NCBI RefSeq assembly: GCF_017068455.1
Contig: NZ_CP070608.1
Coordinates: 248,001-312,000 of the forward strand
Length of the DNA stretch: 64,000 nucleotides
Direction: 5' to 3'
Origin: Fulvivirga lutea
Lineage (GTDB): Bacteria > Bacteroidota > Bacteroidia > Cytophagales > Cyclobacteriaceae
Shown: positions 15,044 through 24,027 of the stretch, in pieces
Layout of the letters: every line of letters begins with the position of its first letter
Position numbering within the stretch: the stretch's first letter is position 1
The notes under the pieces: generated by a model
What the model saw: the letters and a program-made list of their open reading frames with translations, nothing else
Told to the model about the DNA's origin: nothing
Databases searched by the model: none
Made by a program: the position numbers and the translations under genes

Positions 15044-16261
15044 ATGAGTGAAGAAAGTATCTTACTTCCATCTACATCAAATTTTGATCCAAAAATTATA
15101 CAACTCCCTGCATCAAAGAGTGTTGCCAACCGTGCCTTAATTGTTCATGCTCTGGCAAAAGGAAAATCTGAGATAAAAAATCTATCTGAAGCAAGAGATA
15201 CACAAACCATGATACGCCTTTTACACTCTGATTCGGAACTATTGGATGTTCTTGATGCAGGAACTACCATGCGCTTTCTAACAGCTTTTTTGGCCATTAC
15301 TAATCAACATAAAATACTAACCGGAACCGCCAGAATGAAAGAGCGACCAATAGGTATTCTTGTTGATTCATTAAAAAGTATTGGAGCCAAAATTAGTTAT
15401 GTCGAAAGAGAAGGTTTTCCACCAATTAAAATTGAAGGATTTGCTGCTACAGAGGTTAAAGAAATAAAGATGCGCGGTGATGTTAGTAGCCAATACATTT
15501 CAGCTTTAATGATGGTGGCTCCTTTATTAAAAGGTGGCTTAAAAATAAACCTGGAGGGGAAAATAGGTAGTAAGCCTTATATTGAAATGACTCTTGCTGT
15601 AATGAAACACTTTGGAGCAGCGGGAGAATTTAGTGCAAATGTGATTTCAATTCCTCCTCAAAAGTATAAAGACGCTACCTATTCTATCGAACCTGACTGG
15701 TCCGCTGCGAGTTACTGGTATAGTCTAGTTGCATTGAGTAAAAATTCTAGCATAACGTTGGCAGGATTAAAGCCTGACGCCATACAGGGTGATAGTGTTA
15801 TCTGGAAGATAATGCAATCATTAGGAGTGAACACTACTTTTAATGAAGAAGGGGCAGTGTTGACTAAAGCAGAATACAGCAATTCGTTTGAATATGATTT
15901 TACTCATTGTCCTGACCTTGCTCAAACAGTAGCCGTGGTATGTGCTGCCAAAGGAATAAAGGCAAAGTTCACCGGGTTAGAAAGTCTTAAAATAAAGGAG
16001 ACAGACAGAGTAAAGGCACTACAAGTTGAGCTTAGCAAGTTTGGTGCAGCCTTATATGAGGTTGATAATGTTTGGATTTTAGAACCTGCACCAAATCCTG
16101 AATGGGATCATTTGGTAATAGATACATACGAAGATCACAGAATGGCTATGGCTTTCGCCCCTTTATGCATGTTAGGTAAAGTGGAAATTAAAGATCCATC
16201 GGTAGTGAATAAGTCCTATCCTGGCTTTTGGAACGACTTTAGAAAAGTGGGTCTAGCTTAG
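15044..16261 (+). CDS. aroA: 3-Phosphoshikimate 1-carboxyvinyltransferase (EPSP synthase)
   Basis: This 405-residue cytoplasmic enzyme transfers enolpyruvyl from PEP to shikimate 3-phosphate. Recognisable parts are PASKSVANRALI at the N-terminus (shikimate-3-phosphate lysine and serine), DAGTTMRFLTAF (the family NAGTAxR loop), RPIGILVDSL, GDVSSQYISALMM, and late EDHRMAMAFAP with the catalytic and PEP-binding residues. The enzyme is slightly shorter than the ~430 of enterobacteria. It follows the aromatic operon but is separated by the opposing YtxH-like gene, so it needs its own promoter; TATAATTG near 15012 is a weak candidate. Confidence 0.95.
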   Translation: MSEESILLPSTSNFDPKIIQLPASKSVANRALIVHALAKGKSEIKNLSEARDTQTMIRLLHSDSELLDVLDAGTTMRFLTAFLAITNQHKILTGTARMKERPIGILVDSLKSIGAKISYVEREGFPPIKIEGFAATEVKEIKMRGDVSSQYISALMMVAPLLKGGLKINLEGKIGSKPYIEMTLAVMKHFGAAGEFSANVISIPPQKYKDATYSIEPDWSAASYWYSLVALSKNSSITLAGLKPDAIQGDSVIWKIMQSLGVNTTFNEEGAVLTKAEYSNSFEYDFTHCPDLAQTVAVVCAAKGIKAKFTGLESLKIKETDRVKALQVELSKFGAALYEVDNVWILEPAPNPEWDHLVIDTYEDHRMAMAFAPLCMLGKVEIKDPSVVNKSYPGFWNDFRKVGLA

Positions 16262-17036
16262 CCCGAAGCTGTTTAAAATAATCCGCTGTTTTTAATAATC
16301 GACTCCCATACCACGAAAACAATTCTCCATCTACAATTAGAATTTTAGATTTTGGGAAGAGCTCTTCAAATTCCTCTAAATGTTTCTTCTTAAACGGAAA
16401 TGGTTCGGATGAAAGAAGCACCACTTGTGGCTGAAGATTTTCTAACTCTTCCAAACTAAGCTCAGGGTATCTGCTTGGTGAAATTAAATTTTCAAAACCC
16501 GACTTTTGAAGCATTTTATTGATAAAGGTATCCTTTCCAACCACCATCTTGGGTTTATTCCAGATGAAGTAAAGACATGTAAGTTTTTTAAATTCTGGTA
16601 ATTGATCAAATGACGTTCTAATGGAATTAACCAATCGGTTCGCTTTATCTTCTACTCTAAATATCGTGCCTATAGAAGTGATCATATTTAGAGAATCATT
16701 CAAATCATAGATATCACTCATCCAAACCGGGTACTTCTTTTTAAGCTGATTAATACCAGACTCATAATTTTCCTCCTTATTACCAATTATAAGATCAGGC
16801 TGAATTTCATCAATCTTATCAAATCTAAAGTTCTTTGTACCTCCAATTATTGGTTTTGATTTTACGCTGTCAGCTGGATGTATACAGAATTTAGTAAGAC
16901 CTGCTATTTTATCCTCCAAACCTAAGTCAAAAAGCAACTCTGTTTGTGAAGGAACTAAGGAAATTACCCGCATGGGGGAATGAGGTATTATGACCTCAGA
17001 CCCCATTTGGTCTTTAAAAAGTTGTTTCTCAGCCAT
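16239..17036 (-). CDS. BtuF-like helical-backbone metal receptor without signal peptide
   Basis: These 265 residues have the two-lobed fold of periplasmic vitamin B12 and siderophore receptors. RVISLVPSQTELLFDLGL (about 24-41) opens lobe 1, PDLIIGNKEENYE follows, and LSLEELENLQPQVVLLSSEPFPF lies in lobe 2. The protein starts MAEKQLFKDQMG with no hydrophobic signal or lipobox, so as written it is cytoplasmic. No BtuC or BtuD genes are nearby. The start is set by the ATG at 17036, 37 bp after the histidine kinase stop; nothing upstream in frame would add a signal peptide. Its end overlaps aroA by 23 bp. The ligand is unknown. Confidence 0.8.
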   Translation of the reverse strand: MAEKQLFKDQMGSEVIIPHSPMRVISLVPSQTELLFDLGLEDKIAGLTKFCIHPADSVKSKPIIGGTKNFRFDKIDEIQPDLIIGNKEENYESGINQLKKKYPVWMSDIYDLNDSLNMITSIGTIFRVEDKANRLVNSIRTSFDQLPEFKKLTCLYFIWNKPKMVVGKDTFINKMLQKSGFENLISPSRYPELSLEELENLQPQVVLLSSEPFPFKKKHLEEFEELFPKSKILIVDGELFSWYGSRLLKTADYFKQLRAKLDPLF

Positions 17037-17073
17037 CTATTCAAAGCTAGCTGAGACAATAAGAATTAAAAAA

Positions 17074-18198
17074 TTAGTTTAATGAAAATGCTCGGGCGTG
17101 GACTTCGGTATTAAGGAAGTTTGGTATCGATATGGTAAAGGAAGTTCCTTTACCATACTCAGACTGCACCCTTATTTGTCCACCAAGTTTATCAACTGTA
17201 TCTTTTACTATATATAACCCCAAACCAGATCCTTTGGCATTTTCATCTGCCCTGTAAAAGATATCGAAGATATAATTAAGGTACTGCTGTCTGATACCGA
17301 TACCGTTATCTTCAACCTTAATATTGCATTCATCAGGCGTAACCTGAATGTTTATTTTTAAGTATGACTCCTGTTTTCCCTTATCGCTGTATTTAAAGGC
17401 ATTGGAAATAACATTGGTCAGAATGGTTTTTACTCTCACCGAATCAGAATATAAATCTGATATTCGGTTTATATTGTAAGTAACAGCAACATGATCAGCA
17501 TTGTAAAAATTAGTGAGCTGATCAAGTTCCTCTTTAATGATTTCTTCAAAGTCAATTCTTTCATTTCGTATTGCTAACTTCTCGTTTCTGTAAAAACTGT
17601 TGATGTCTTCTATAAAATGGTCGAGTTTTAACAAACTCTTTCTTATCATACCCAGGTAGTCGTGCTTTTCCTTCTCCGGATCCTGTCTGGCTAGCTCTAC
17701 TAGACCTAGTGCTGATAATAATGGCGCTCTTAAATCGTGAGAGGTTTTATAGATAAATTGATCTAGTTCGTTGTTGGCTTTCCTTAGCTTCTCTTCTGCA
17801 ATTTTCCTATCAGTGATGTCGTGAAGCGTGATTACCAAACCTCCAACCTCTTCATTTTTTAACAGATTAGATATTGTAACATCAAAGTACAATGTGCCAC
17901 CCTTCTTTGCCAGTAGACATATTTCTGTAAGCTTACTCTCTTTACTATTATCTCTTCTGTTAACAAAATCTCGTAATGAGTTCTGCTTTTCAGGATTAAT
18001 AAACTCAAATAAACTTTTGCCTAAAGCTTCCTCGGGCCGTGTGCCCAATTTTCTTCTCACTGATCCGTTGATATATTTAATCACATATTCATCATCGGTG
18101 ATTAAAATTATATCGTTGGATTTCTCCACAATTGAATGAAACATATCTTCTCCCTCCAGCCCAGCTAAGGACAACCCCTCTAGATAATTTATTGTCAT
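17074..18198 (-). CDS. PAS-domain sensor histidine kinase, soluble
   Basis: This is a 374-residue kinase with no membrane segment. One PAS domain (about 20-135, ending DITDRK) is linked by a short helix to HisKA (SHDLRAPLLSALGLVELA, phospho-accepting His about residue 156) and a HATPase domain with the N box NVISNAFKYSDKG, G1 VEDNGIGI and G2 GSGLGLYIVKD. It should autophosphorylate on signals sensed inside the cell. No receiver domain or response regulator gene is adjacent. It starts 59 bp after the stop of a YfiR-like gene on the same strand and is probably cotranscribed with it. Confidence 0.93.
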   Translation of the reverse strand: MTINYLEGLSLAGLEGEDMFHSIVEKSNDIILITDDEYVIKYINGSVRRKLGTRPEEALGKSLFEFINPEKQNSLRDFVNRRDNSKESKLTEICLLAKKGGTLYFDVTISNLLKNEEVGGLVITLHDITDRKIAEEKLRKANNELDQFIYKTSHDLRAPLLSALGLVELARQDPEKEKHDYLGMIRKSLLKLDHFIEDINSFYRNEKLAIRNERIDFEEIIKEELDQLTNFYNADHVAVTYNINRISDLYSDSVRVKTILTNVISNAFKYSDKGKQESYLKINIQVTPDECNIKVEDNGIGIRQQYLNYIFDIFYRADENAKGSGLGLYIVKDTVDKLGGQIRVQSEYGKGTSFTISIPNFLNTEVHARAFSLN

Positions 18199-18257
18199 TA
18201 TTTCGGCATTCTATAGGTGCCTAACACCAGAATCAAATATCTACGAGTACGACTTAC

Positions 18258-18779
18258 TTATATAAGTATTGCCATTGCAGCTAACTGACCACTTACTTTT
18301 AAATTGGCCTGATCAACAGTTTTTTGATTAAGCTCGAAAACTAATTTGTTATTTACTGTTCTAAAGTTGATTGCACTTCCTTTCTGACCTAACCCTGGAG
18401 TGTCAGTAATAGTTAGTGTAGGATAACCAGCAAGCTTTCTTTGAATACTTTCGAAAGATCTTCCTTCATTTTTACCCACATAAATAATATGGCACCCTGT
18501 TATTTCATTTACAGAGTTGAATTTCTTAACAGCATATTTCTTATCACCTCTTACCTTACCATCGTACCAAGTGTTTAGTGTGCTGTATACATTATCATCT
18601 CCAATTACTCCGATTACAAAGTCTTGTGACGAATCGTATCCTGGCCACTGAATATATTTAATGAAGTTGTAAATCATCATTGAGTGGATTTCGTGAACAG
18701 GGCGATCGCTACCTGCTTTTCCAGTTAATGAAGCAATTAGTAAAAGTGTTAATGCAAATGTTGTTTGTAATTTTCTCAT
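18258..18779 (-). CDS. YfiR-like (DUF4154) periplasmic protein, paralog 1
   Basis: This protein has 173 residues with a signal peptide (MRKLQTTFALTLLLIASLTGKAG). The mature part begins RPVHEIHSMMIYNFIKYIQWPG and ends LAAMAILI. DUF4154/YfiR proteins are periplasmic; YfiR of Pseudomonas restrains a membrane diguanylate cyclase. No such cyclase is in this window, so only the family is transferred. The ATG at 18779 is chosen over an in-frame GTG at 18815 because that GTG overlaps a sigma-54-like promoter (18818-18836). The partner paralog at 22315 has the same length and nearly the same first motif. Confidence 0.85.
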   Translation of the reverse strand: MRKLQTTFALTLLLIASLTGKAGSDRPVHEIHSMMIYNFIKYIQWPGYDSSQDFVIGVIGDDNVYSTLNTWYDGKVRGDKKYAVKKFNSVNEITGCHIIYVGKNEGRSFESIQRKLAGYPTLTITDTPGLGQKGSAINFRTVNNKLVFELNQKTVDQANLKVSGQLAAMAILI

Positions 18780-18817
18780 TTTTTTTAAATAAACTAGTTG
18801 GACAATGCTCTTCACTT

Positions 18818-18836
18818 TACAAAGGCAGTGCCAAAA
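18818..18836 (-). promoter_or_regulatory. Candidate sigma-54 promoter for YfiR-like gene 1 and the kinase
   Basis: The minus strand reads TTTTGGCACTGCCTTTGTA. This has the -24 box TGGCAC and, after exactly 10 bp from GG, GT where GC is consensus in the -12 box. Predicted transcription start is near 18807, giving a 28-base leader to the ATG at 18779. The same bases contain TGCCTTTG, a poor match to TAnnTTTG, as an alternative. Confidence 0.55.
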
Positions 18837-18920
18837 AATTAATTTAAACTAAAAAATGGGTTTTAAGTCCAAAAAAGGGCTTTTCAACTAAATGAGAAAA
18901 GATTAATTGAAATATTTATT

Positions 18921-18953
18921 CACGATATTTCGTGTTTTTCACGATATTTCGTG
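18921..18953 (-). promoter_or_regulatory. Two tandem dyads, candidate activator-binding (enhancer) sites
   Basis: CACGATATTTCGTG occurs at 18921-18934 and again at 18940-18953, 19 bp apart start to start. Each is a dyad, CACGA-N4-TCGTG; the second extends to TTCACGA/TCGTGAA. They lie about 114-146 bp upstream of the predicted sigma-54 start, just past the stop of the sigma-54 activator gene. This is the usual place for enhancer sites of such activators. There is no T-run, so a terminator is unlikely. Confidence 0.6.
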
Positions 18954-18955
18954 AA

Positions 18956-21900
18956 TTATTGACGTGAAATATTGAGCTTTTTAATTCTGCTTTCAAGCGT
19001 TGTTGGTTTGAGGCCCAGCACCTCTGCAGCACCTCCTGGTCCACTAATTTTCCAATTGGTGTGGTGTAATACTTTTAAAATATAGTTGCGTTCAAATTTT
19101 TCGAGTGTCTCAAATTTATCATCATTTTGTGTTGACTTCGTACCCGAAAGAAACCAGTCGCCTAGCTTCAATTGATTAGAAGGGCTAATAATTACAGCAC
19201 GCTCGATAATATTTTCAAGCTCACGCACATTACCGGGCCAATTGTATTTCTCCAATTGAGAAATAACACTTTGTGGTATTTTATTTACTTCTTTTCCCAG
19301 TTTTTGATTATATCTCTGAACAAAATGATTCACTAACAATCTAATATCACTCTTTCGCTCCCTCAAAGCCGGAATATATAGCGGAAACACATTTAACCGA
19401 TAAAATAAATCAGATCTAAAACTACCTTCTTCAACAGCCTTTTCAAGATCGCGATTAGTAGCAGCTATTAAGCGCACATCTACTTTGATGGTCTTTGTAC
19501 CGCCTAATCTTTCAAACTCACCTTCTTGCAAAGCTCTCAAAAGCTTTGGTTGTAGCTCAATGGGCATTTCACCCACTTCATCTAAAAACAAGGTACCTCC
19601 ATCGGCCAGCTCAAACCTACCTTGTTTGGCAGCAACTGCCCCTGTAAATGCACCTTTTTCATGCCCAAATAATTCACTTTCTATTAATGTAGCGGGCAAT
19701 GCAGCACAATTTATCTTTATCAGTGGTTTATCCTTTCTTTCACTTAAACTATGAATTGCTTTGGAAATCACCTCTTTACCTGTACCGGTCTCACCGAGTA
19801 TTAATACTGTTGAAGATGTTTTGGCAACATGCTCCATATCAACTAAAACGCGCTTAAAATCTTTATCCTGGCTTATTATGTTTTCAATATAATTTGTAGA
19901 TCCAATTTCTTCCTTTAGGTAAATATTTTCAGCTTCTAGCTTATCTCGTAGATCTTTCACCTCCTCTAGTGCCTTCTCCAACTTTTTTGTACGGTCTTTT
20001 ACCTCCTTTTCAAGGTTATCATTCATTTGCCGTAAACTTTTTTCAATGGTCACTCTCTCAATTGAGTTCACTATTACTTCCGCCACAAGCTTAAGAAGAA
20101 TGATATCATTAATAGACCAATTATTTTTCTGCTCTGCATCAAAACCCATGTAGCCATACACTCTATTACCAACCACCATTGGCATATTCAGCATAGATTT
20201 GATGCCGTATTGATCGAATATCTTCTGAAACGCTCCTATGTCATCCGTCTGCTCTTCAATATCTGAGATTAGAAGCATACGTTTAGCGTCAAGCAATTCA
20301 AAAGGCCATGGGTAATCCTTTCGTAAAACTTTCTGAAACTCAGATTTTAAAGGCATTACATCCCGTTTCACCCATTCAGCGGTAGTTGTACCGTAAGAAC
20401 CATCTTCACTCAGTTTGAATATGTAAGATCTGTCTGCATTAACGTATTCGCCTACCTTCCGCAAGGCCCAGTCGATTGACTCTCTGATTGTCTTTTCATT
20501 AGCATTAATGAATTCTGCTGAAATATCTGAAACCAAACCTTCGAGCTCTAACCTCTCTTTCAACTCATCTTCCACTCTTTTGCGCTCAATTTCAAGGCCC
20601 ATTCGGTTGGCACCAATTAATAATAGTGACTCAACCCACGGCTCTCGCTCCAATTCTTTAGAGTCAATAATAAAAAGATGCCCAATAGTTTTTTTGGAGC
20701 TATCAGAAATAGGTACACCCAGATAACCTTGCGATTTATTAGCTGTTAAAAATGCATCTTTTGGGAAGGCCTGCGCAATTCCCTGTCTATAATAAGTAGT
20801 TCCCTCTTTCAACACCTTCTCAGCTGGAGAACCATTTACTTTATAGGTGTAATTTTCTTCAAAATGATCCTTGTTCCACAAACTAACAATCTCAAGCTCA
20901 TCCTGAACGTTATCTACAACCTGTGATATACCAACAATAGAAACATTGAGGTATTCAGCCATTGTTCTAATGAAATTGGGAATAAAATCCATCTTGGATT
21001 TTGACAAAGCTTCTTCCACCAGCCTTGTAATAATACCCTCAATATGTTTTTGTTGAGAAATGGGTTGTATCACTAATATTATTCCCTGGTTCTGCTCCAC
21101 AGCGTAATGCGAAGCTGATACTTCAGCTGAGATGGTCTCCCCATTTTTGCACTGTAATACAAACTGTGCAGATAAACCCTTTTTGCTACTTAATACAGAG
21201 TCTAAAAACTTATTAATCTTATCATGCTGTGAGGGAGTATATTCCGATATTTTTTTTCCGATGAGTTCTTTACCCCTGAATCCCAAAATATCTTCAGATC
21301 TTGGGTTTACCTCGGCAATAGATTGAGTTACCGCATCAAGTATTATGATGGCATCATTTGAATAATTAAGGATATTCTGAAACTTGTTCTGACTATCTTC
21401 AAGCGCCCTTTTAGTTGTGGCCTTCTCCTTACTTTCAAGTTCCAGTCTTTCGGTGATATCTAAACTACTACCAATCATTCGGGTAGCTCGGCCATTTTCA
21501 TCTCTTGCAATGACCATTCCCCTATCCTTAAACCACCTATATTGTCCCGCTTTATTTTTTAATCGATGCTCCGACTCATATTTCTTTGTTAAGCCCTTTA
21601 AGTGATCAGCTAACCGAATGCTATACTTCGCTGAATCGTCTGGATGTAGAAAGTCATTCCAATCAGTTAAAAAATTCATTAGCTCTTTTCGAGTGTAACC
21701 TAAATTTTCCGCAAACTGATTGCTGAAGAAAATCTTTTTATCCTTAATATTCCAATCCCAAACCCCTTCATTTAGAATTTCCATACCCACTTTCCACCTC
21801 TCCTGATTGGCCATTAACTCCTGCTCAACACTTCGTTGTTTTTCAACATCAATTAAAAAATGGCACAATAATTCGCTTTCGTCAGACTTAAAAATGCGCG

Positions 21901-22198
21901 GAATAATCTGTACCACTTTTTCGTTGCCCGAACAAAGCAATAATGGCGTATCAAAGGCCTCTTCTGAATTAGAAGAAAGCTTAGAGAAATAACTTTTAAA
22001 GCTTTTTAGTGAGAAATCAGGGTGTATGTCTGTTACTTTCTTTGCAAGAAGTACTTCATTAGAATATCCTGACAATTCGCAAAACTGATTATTAACGGCT
22101 ATCAGCTCACCTTCGGCATTCATCCAGCACATAGCAAAAGGTGCATTTTTAATGCTTTCCTCCAATGTATGAGCAGAGACTAGTGAAGTTTTATTCAT
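18956..22198 (-). CDS. Sigma-54-dependent transcriptional activator with PAS and GAF sensor domains
   Basis: This protein has 1080 residues and no membrane segment. Three PAS domains (about 10-115, 135-255 and 265-385) precede two GAF domains (about 390-540 and 555-720), a coiled coil (about 725-775) and an AAA+ core. The core has Walker A GETGTGKE, the sigma-54 contact loop GAFTGA and Walker [13 protein letters not shown] Fis-type helix-turn-helix ([17 protein letters not shown]) ends the protein. The layout is close to FhlA-type activators, with no receiver domain, so control must come through ligand or redox sensing by PAS/GAF. The ATG at 22198 is preferred over a TTG one codon upstream. 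YfiR-like genes flank it on both sides. Confidence 0.93.
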
Positions 22199-22260
22199 CA
22201 ATTTAAAAGCCGATTAACAGAAAATTAAGAGTTTTGATTATGATTATCTAAAGGCTACCT

Positions 22261-22296
22261 AATAAAAAAGCCATTCACTGGTTAGCGAATGGCTTT
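22261..22296 (-). terminator. Intrinsic terminator after YfiR-like gene 2
   Basis: A 10-bp perfect stem, AAAGCCATTC (22267-22276) with GAATGGCTTT (22287-22296), and a 10-base loop. On the minus strand it is followed by TTTTTTATT. It separates YfiR-like gene 2 from the sigma-54 activator, so the two are not simply cotranscribed. Confidence 0.85.
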
Positions 22297-22314
22297 CAAT
22301 TATTTTTAATTCGG

Positions 22315-22836
22315 TTATATTAATATTGCCATGGCCGTTAATTGACTTGAGGTTTTTAAGTTGGCTTTATTCATTGCCGCCTGATTCAATTCAAACTTTA
22401 ACCTACCATCTAACACTTTAAAGTTGATACAACTTCCTTTTTCTCCTAGACCTCTTCTGTTTGTAACTGTTAAAGTTGAGCTAGAGCCAATTTTGCCTAA
22501 AACATCCTCAAACTGATTGCTACCGCTATCTCCAACATACAACAGCTGACAGCCAGATACCTCTGAAGCTGATTCAAATTTCTTAATAATGAACTTCTTA
22601 CCACCTCTCTCCTTATTTCCGTACCAGGTATTAAGTGTGTTATAAACGTTGTCATCCTTGAGTACGCCTATCACAAATTCACCTGCATTCTGATCACCAG
22701 GCCACTGGATATACTTCAAAAAGTTGTAAATCATCATCGCATGCAATTCATGCTCAGGACGATTTTGGGATTGCACCTGAGTATTAAACGCCATGGTACA
22801 AACAGCCATTAAAAATATAATTTTGATCAATTTCAT
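22315..22836 (-). CDS. YfiR-like (DUF4154) periplasmic protein, paralog 2
   Basis: This protein has 173 residues, the same length as paralog 1. A signal peptide (about 1-24, ending VQSQ) leads into RPEHELHAMMIYNFLKYIQWPG, and the C-terminus is LTAMAILI. Both match paralog 1 almost residue for residue, while the middle is more divergent. The ATG at 22836 is used; an in-frame GTG at 22839 is less likely. It has a TATTTTTG -7 element upstream (22866-22873) and no sigma-54-like box, so the two paralogs seem to be controlled differently. Its own terminator follows at 22261-22296. Confidence 0.85.
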   Translation of the reverse strand: MKLIKIIFLMAVCTMAFNTQVQSQNRPEHELHAMMIYNFLKYIQWPGDQNAGEFVIGVLKDDNVYNTLNTWYGNKERGGKKFIIKKFESASEVSGCQLLYVGDSGSNQFEDVLGKIGSSSTLTVTNRRGLGEKGSCINFKVLDGRLKFELNQAAMNKANLKTSSQLTAMAILI

Positions 22837-22865
22837 CACTTCTCAAGTTTAGTCATAGGTTGCAA

Positions 22866-22873
22866 CAAAAATA
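22866..22873 (-). promoter_or_regulatory. Probable promoter of YfiR-like gene 2 (-7 element TATTTTTG)
   Basis: A perfect TAnnTTTG match on the minus strand, 29 bp before the ATG at 22836. The expected TTTG 19 bp upstream reads TTCA, so the -33 box is weak. Confidence 0.45.
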
Positions 22874-22953
22874 CGAAACCATTCTGGTTAATTGAAAAAT
22901 TCCAACTCTTCAAATAGCTGAATGTAAGGAAATTACAAAAATAAATTTCGATT

Positions 22954-24027
22954 TTACTTCAAATAGCGAAAATCATGCCCGTTTTTAACCTTTAATAAGA
23001 ATGAATAAATAAGTTTTATAACATTCTGAACATCTTCTTTATGTACAGTTTCTACTGTGGTATGCATATATTTCAATGGTAGCGAAATTAAAGCCGATGC
23101 GACTCCCTGATTTGAGTAAGCAAAAGCGTCTGTATCAGTACCGGTAGCTCTTGATGCAGCTGCTCGCTGAAATGGTATTTTATTCTTTTCTGCCACTTCA
23201 ATAATCATGTCAAGCACATTGTTGTGCACCGCAGGGCCATATGTCAGAACAGGGCCATCCCCGGCCTTTTGATGACCACTTTCTATTTTGTTATACATGG
23301 GTGAGCAAGTATCGTGGCAAACATCCGTTACAATGGCTATATTAGGATTAATCCTTTCTGCGATCATCTGCGCCCCTCTCAAACCTACTTCCTCTTGTAC
23401 AGCATTGACTATATACAGACCAAAATCTAGTTTCTTTTTATTTTCATGTAGCATTTTAGCTACTTCCGCAATCATGAAGCCGCCTATTCTATTATCTAGT
23501 GCCCTACCTGATAAGTAATTTTTGTTAAGGTCAATCAACTCATCATCAAAAGTCATTACACAGCCAACGTGCACTCCTAACTTTTCTACCTCTTCCTTAC
23601 TAGTGCACCCTACATCGACAAAAATATTCTTGAGTGAAGGTTGTTCTTCAGATGATTTATCTCTTCTAACATGAATTGCCGGCCAACCAAAAACACCTTT
23701 TATAATGCCCTTTTTTGTATGGATGTTTACTCTTTTCGATGGTGCAATCTGATGGTCAGAGCCACCATTACGCCTAACGTAGATATACCCTTCTTCTGTA
23801 ATGTAGTTCACAAACCATGAAATCTCATCGGCATGAGCCTCAATCACAACTTTGTAATTTGCCTTTGGGTTTATTACACCTACCGCTGTTCCATAAGTGT
23901 CAGTAAAATAATCATCTATGTATGGCTTAATGTATTCAAGCCATATCTCTTGCCCTGATTTTTCAAAACCTGTTGGCGATGCATTATTTAAATACTTATC
24001 TAAAAACTTTCTGCTCTCTTTTTTCAT
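22954..24027 (-). CDS. M42-family metallo-aminopeptidase
   Basis: This 357-residue cytoplasmic peptidase is of the tetrahedral-aminopeptidase/glutamyl-aminopeptidase type. Two-metal-site residues are visible in order: EAHADEI (His, Asp), SGRALDNRIGG (bridging Asp), VQEEVGLRGA (catalytic Glu pair), VTDVCHDT (Asp) and a final His in KYMHTTVETVH. Length is normal for the family. It starts 2 bp after the stop of the carboxylase gene, so the two are cotranscribed. A metabolic link between them is not evident. Confidence 0.93.
   Translation of the reverse strand: MKKESRKFLDKYLNNASPTGFEKSGQEIWLEYIKPYIDDYFTDTYGTAVGVINPKANYKVVIEAHADEISWFVNYITEEGYIYVRRNGGSDHQIAPSKRVNIHTKKGIIKGVFGWPAIHVRRDKSSEEQPSLKNIFVDVGCTSKEEVEKLGVHVGCVMTFDDELIDLNKNYLSGRALDNRIGGFMIAEVAKMLHENKKKLDFGLYIVNAVQEEVGLRGAQMIAERINPNIAIVTDVCHDTCSPMYNKIESGHQKAGDGPVLTYGPAVHNNVLDMIIEVAEKNKIPFQRAAASRATGTDTDAFAYSNQGVASALISLPLKYMHTTVETVHKEDVQNVIKLIYSFLLKVKNGHDFRYLK

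Follow-up and report, generated by a model that had tools for sequence, protein, structure and literature searches.

The sigma-54 activator gene in the 64,000-nucleotide stretch of Fulvivirga lutea DNA analyzed here (the window) is predicted to form a cis-encoded sigma-54 switch, in which the activator and a pair of dyads at the 3′ end of its own gene would control the adjoining gene yfiR-A, a histidine kinase gene and probably a FecB-like gene (rough probability 0.86).

Organization of the locus

On the minus strand, the genes and elements are arranged in the order yfiR-B, activator gene, two dyads, −24/−12 promoter, yfiR-A, PAS histidine kinase gene and FecB-like gene. The activator (18956–22201, minus strand, the open reading frame ending at 18956 with the stop included) has a length of 1081 aa and matched the Pfam families Sigma54_activat (1.9e-73), PAS, GAF and HTH_8 (1.4e-6). 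It comprises PAS repeats, a GAF domain, an AAA+ sigma-54 interaction domain in whose translation the GAFTGA motif can be read, and a C-terminal Fis-type HTH, and thus has the features by which bacterial enhancer-binding proteins are recognized. We take it to have the FhlA/GabR-like layout of a one-component PAS/GAF-AAA+-Fis enhancer-binding protein. Common to both are the PAS or GAF input, the AAA+ domain with GAFTGA, the Fis-type HTH and the lack of a matched receiver domain, whereas the activator of the window differs by its several PAS domains and by an N-terminal part that diverges strongly in the relative G005. Since no receiver domain was matched with Pfam in the activator, phosphorylation by the neighbouring kinase cannot be assumed. 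No −24/−12 element was recognized upstream of the activator gene.

The first gene downstream of the −24/−12 element is yfiR-A (18258–18779, minus strand, ATG at 18779), which encodes a YfiR/HmsC-like protein of 173 aa (DUF4154, 5.4e-36) that, from an N-terminal signal peptide judged by eye alone, looks like a small secreted protein. It is followed after 59 bp by the PAS histidine kinase gene (17074–18198, minus strand, 374 aa; HATPase_c 1.3e-25, HisKA 5e-9), for whose product no receiver domain was matched with Pfam and no membrane segment was obvious by eye, and after a further gap of 37 bp by the FecB-like gene for a periplasmic-binding-protein-like product (16239–17036, minus strand; Peripla_BP_2 5.2e-20). 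The terminator scan listed no minus-strand terminator-like site within 16000–18258, and the operon therefore probably reaches this third gene, so that the FecB-like gene is likely to lie on the transcript of yfiR-A and the kinase gene.

Upstream of the activator gene lies a second YfiR/HmsC-like gene, yfiR-B (22315–22839, minus strand; DUF4154, 8.9e-34), which is preceded by the housekeeping-type −7 box TATTTTTG (22866–22873, minus strand), an exact match to TAnnTTTG; in all four orthologues such an exact match is present 31–36 bp 5′ of the yfiR-B start. Between yfiR-B and the activator gene, the minus strand has at 22267–22296 an inverted repeat with a T run behind it, which by eye is likely a terminator, though absent from the list of the terminator scan.

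Candidate enhancer dyads and the predicted −24/−12 promoter

Just past the activator stop lie two exact copies of the near-palindrome CACGATATTTCGTG, at 18921–18934 (proximal candidate enhancer dyad) and 18940–18953 (distal candidate), with a start-to-start spacing of 19 bp, in agreement with the sequence-only reading from which this analysis started. Both are conserved in three relatives. With at most one mismatch to the pattern CACGAWATWTCGTG, the two dyads were the sole matches in the genome of 4,137,993 bases (4.14 Mb). The reversed control of this pattern gave one forward and one reverse match in the whole genome; a single site is thus not rare, but the tandem pair is. Within the window, 11 matches with up to three mismatches were found, four of them being the two dyads counted on both strands, against a shuffle mean of 3.44, and none of 100 shuffles reached 11. 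The dyads are very probably the DNA docking sites of the activator itself, as predicted from sequence.

That the dyads instead act in RNA, terminating or attenuating transcription where the activator mRNA ends, with the two repeats paired in one hairpin, was considered quite improbable. The dyad RNA does fold well (−15.8 kcal/mol, z −5.2, reached by 0 of 200 shuffles), but near-palindromic copies pair automatically. Two terminator-like sites were listed at the dyads, but on the plus strand, opposite to the genes; on the coding strand no T run follows the dyads and the scan listed no minus-strand terminator there. No Rfam family was matched within 17000–23100.

Downstream of the dyads, the predicted −24/−12 promoter TGGCACTGCCTTTGTA (18818–18833, minus strand) matches TGGCAC-N5-TTG, with TGGCACTGCCTTTG at 18833–18820. 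Between the nearer dyad and the T of TGGCAC there are 87 bp, where about 90 bp had been proposed for a TTGGCAC-N5-TTGTA element. Ten of the 11 scored positions fit and the GG-N10-G spacing is present, the single deviation being GT in place of GC at −12, as had been pointed out before; in the other 13 scored members of the genus the −12 dinucleotide is GT, GG or GA. None of 200 dinucleotide-shuffled versions of the 184-bp intergenic stretch contained an equally good −24/−12 element, and genome-wide TGGCACN5TTG had 21 matches compared with 7 in the reversed control. An rpoN gene is present in the genome (PF04552, 1.6e-54, at C1:1669206).

The start of transcription is predicted at about 18807/18806, which places the yfiR-A ATG at 18779 about 28 bp past it, the distance given in the sequence-only reading. 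At the predicted +1 begins a conserved 5′ leader, ATTGTCCAACTAGTTTATT (18788–18806, minus strand), located at the same place in all four orthologues. The leader pattern ATTGTCCAA..AGTTTAT was observed at 18788–18806 in the window and in L042, L043 and L044; in 15 genomes of the genus it had seven matches, four of them at this locus, while the reversed control had three. The element TCCAACTA is recurrent in the leaders of several relatives.

Conservation in relatives carrying the activator

The activator protein was searched in 58 genomes, including that of the window (G000) and 15 from its genus. Besides the window's genome, G008, G011 and G005 carry the activator gene between two yfiR genes, and in all three, paired dyads just past the activator stop and TGGCACT-N4-TTG are kept. 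A lack of the dyads in orthologous regions, named in the sequence-only reading as a result that would refute it, was thus looked for and not found in these three genomes. The distance from the dyad core to the −24 element is 87–89 bp in all four genomes, and the spacer between them has largely diverged. One dyad is damaged in G011, and the outer dyad bases differ in G005, where the activator compares with that of the window at 34% in its N-terminal part and at 67% in its AAA+/HTH part. The histidine kinase gene of G011 is broken up into two open reading frames (L043, 4097–5246).

Transcription of yfiR-A from a housekeeping promoter of the TAnnTTTG type, with TGGCAC-N5-TTG present by chance, is very improbable. 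G008 does have an exact match, TATTTTTG, before yfiR-A, at the position of the −24 element and overlapping it, but no exact TAnnTTTG precedes yfiR-A in G000, G011 and G005, while yfiR-B, in contrast, has one in all four orthologues. The −24/−12 scores, moreover, are 9–10 in all four and were reached by 0, 1, 0 and 0 of 200 shuffles. The conserved dyads and −24/−12 elements of the orthologues thus support the earlier proposal that the activator drives the YfiR-like gene and the kinase gene behind it, which we infer from sequence.

Relatives without the activator and a second enhancer type

A block of ppx, a carboxylase-like gene, an M42 peptidase gene, yfiR genes, a FecB-like gene and aroA is found genus-wide, some copies being cut by contig ends and that of G012 being split over two contigs. 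In ten members of the genus, the yfiR block lacks the activator gene, and in seven of these (G001, G002, G004, G006, G007, G009 and G014) a yfiR gene is preceded by a −24/−12 element and by TCCCA-N23-TGGGA. The −24/−12 elements of the seven score 8–10, values reached by 8, 1, 0, 1, 1, 5 and 0 of 200 shuffles, and TCCCA-N23-TGGGA is located 63, 75 or 85–86 bp upstream of −24 (L222–L228). These distances differ by steps of about one helical turn. When the pair is described as two TCCCAnnnTGGGA dyads about 20 bp apart, it is found with two mismatches in G003 and G010 too, and one dyad of this type was seen by eye in G013; the −24/−12 candidates of G003, G010 and G013 are weak, being reached by 6, 13 and 34 of 200 shuffles. 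The CACG-type pair was found only in the four genomes with the activator gene at this place, out of 14 genomes of the genus scored.

Across whole genomes, TCCCA-N23-TGGGA shows no enrichment (64 forward matches over 15 genomes against 66 for the reversed control), and its weight therefore rests on the seven matches at one place. The tandem TCCCA-type pattern, with up to two mismatches, had matches in 11 of 390 genomes (1 for the reversed control). Two of these are at yfiR, and an activator AAA+ domain, from which a cognate activator could be named, adjoins none of the 11. Among 19 yfiR loci from outside the genus, 16 lacked a −24/−12 element with a score of 8 or more in the 250 bp upstream, the other three scoring 8, 9 and 9. 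Judging from these sites, control of yfiR by sigma-54 seems to characterize this genus, in which it comes with two enhancer types.

The proposal of a self-contained switch accordingly stands in part: activator, dyads and promoter do adjoin each other, but the −24/−12 element of yfiR is also present, with another dyad pair, in members of the genus that lack the activator gene. As judged by these loci, the enhancer type has been exchanged at one retained promoter, in one direction or the other. In a tree of six proteins from 23 genomes, G000, G008 and G011 were grouped with a support of 1.0 and G005 was placed with a support of 0.158, too low to rank the two enhancer types by age. Tentatively, the activator gene with its 3′ dyads might be a portable cassette that lands before an existing sigma-54 promoter and thereby subjects it to a new signal.

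Link between the dyad and the DNA-binding domain across phyla

An exact scan of genome contigs for tandem ACGAWATWTCGT-N4-10-ACGAWATWTCGT yielded at least 118 loci. Among the matches listed, a sigma-54 activator gene lies no more than 200 bp away at 75 of 118, which come from several phyla. Within 150 bp of an activator open reading frame lie 72 of the 118 listed loci, 40 before the start, 26 after the stop and 6 inside the frame, the last probably owing to wrong start calls; the frequent position before the start is a further point against the RNA reading of the dyads. At the other listed loci, an activator is located within 600 bp (3), further away (6) or nowhere in the surrounding stretch examined (37), and because of the latter two groups a dyad by itself is no proof of an activator site. 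Elements of the −24/−12 type are found predominantly on the outward side of the 118 listed loci, with 39 outward against 0 inward at a score of at least 10 out of 11, 79 against 6 at a score of at least 9, and 101 against 30 at a score of at least 8.

A helix of the type GAAxL...TTLxxR, searched with the expression GAA..L...TL..[RK] that was written after inspection of the sequences, is present in 65 of the 73 activators neighbouring listed tandem dyads and in none of the 15 control activators, which were taken from relatives and from sites in the window's own genome; some of the 8 neighbouring activators without it are open reading frames cut at the end of the locus. These counts tie the tandem dyad to a single class of Fis-type DNA-binding domains, and the activator of the window belongs to this class. 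Activators of G010 and G023 whose helices read NPKTLF have a different dyad behind them, identical or close to TTCTGATATATCAGAA, together with a −24/−12 element. Non-orthologous activators sampled from relatives have a −24/−12 element with a score of at least 9 after the stop in 5 of 24 cases, and most lack a dyad pair or a −24/−12 element there, which speaks against a general rule.

Binding of the dyads by another regulator, either a repressor or a different activator, with the activator of the window acting elsewhere, is improbable. The pairing of activator and dyads is deduced from sequence, relatives with the other dyad pair at the same promoter indicate that this promoter can answer to more than one regulator, and the tandem dyads of Chryseolinea are mostly away from activator genes. 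Against this stand the activators close to 75 of the 118 listed loci in several phyla, with their common helix class, and the restriction of the CACG-type pair within the genus to genomes that carry the activator gene at this locus. The many tandem ACGAWATWTCGT pairs of the Chryseolinea genomes have GC-rich spacers, and an activator adjoins 1 of the 10 loci L055, L059, L069, L080, L092, L093, L100, L107, L109 and L117; these pairs may form a regulon controlled in trans or be a dispersed repeat.

The targets at tandem-dyad loci include, by Pfam, an OsmC-like protein (L079), a cyanate lyase (L064) and an NMT1-like binding protein (L046). Similar N-termini to that of the OsmC-like target were seen by eye at other flavobacterial loci. 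The genome of the window has a second activator (G000:C1:1536500-1549500, L033) of 1287 aa, 56% alike in the AAA+/HTH part. Downstream of it lie dyads that by eye are imperfect and TGGCACACCCCTTGGT, then a gene with DUF7793 and a cluster of signalling genes.

Proposed mechanism and comparison with known systems

In the proposed switch, the activator would be made from its own promoter and would sense a cytoplasmic signal with its PAS/GAF domains. As dimers, it would recognize both CACGAwATwTCGTG dyads at the 3′ end of its own gene with the Fis-type HTH; the dyad centres precede the predicted start by about 120 and 140 bp. The assembled ring would contact sigma-54 RNA polymerase at −24/−12, thereby opening transcription of yfiR-A, the histidine kinase gene and probably the FecB-like gene. 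YfiR-B, with its conserved housekeeping-type promoter, may serve as the basal paralogue and YfiR-A as the inducible one.

In Pseudomonas, YfiR acts in the periplasm to repress YfiN, a diguanylate cyclase. The yfiR-A product of the window shares the YfiR/HmsC-like domain with it, but a YfiN-type GGDEF partner was not found in the genome and the neighbour is a histidine kinase, unlike in the YfiBNR system of Pseudomonas (PMC4655355). The search for GGDEF gave 0 matches at E ≤ 0.001 in the window's genome, while 8 of 14 control genomes were positive in the same search. Classic YfiR-YfiN signalling is therefore unlikely, YfiR-A must have another target, and a reading of the locus in terms of YfiN and c-di-GMP was rejected. 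The order M42 peptidase gene, yfiR, yfiR, kinase gene was found at 6 of 8 outgroup loci, and the kinase gene beside yfiR is, on this gene order, an ancestral neighbour.

In Desulfovibrio vulgaris, according to passages of PMC4641369, activator genes are co-localized with sigma-54 promoters and predicted binding motifs; six are divergent and one, DVU0569, has the promoter downstream of the activator gene, as in the window. The systems differ in phylum and targets, the dyad described here and a YfiR target are absent from those passages, and neither CGAAA nor TTTCG was found in the main text of PMC4641369. In the open-access literature, no article was found that joins sigma-54, Bacteroidetes and YfiR, nor one that joins them with enhancer binding protein; the match listed for YfiR and Bacteroidetes was off topic, and among those listed for the dyad letters there was no sigma-54 title.

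Significance

The layout of an activator gene beside its own enhancer and target promoter is of a known kind, and the finding is sharpened by its conservation and by the cross-phylum link between the dyad and the DNA-binding domain. An enhancer motif is computationally assigned to a DNA-binding-domain class of activators in several phyla, and the targets of uncharacterized activators with this helix would thereby become predictable from DNA alone. YfiR-like proteins are put under predicted sigma-54 control beside a histidine kinase, in a genome without a GGDEF match. Because the −24/−12 element is kept and the enhancer pair differs within one genus, the swap, or its reversal by loss, may be reconstructed and tested; the change of enhancer type at a retained promoter makes the rewiring of a sigma-54 circuit directly testable, and this exchange is the part that most deserves follow-up.
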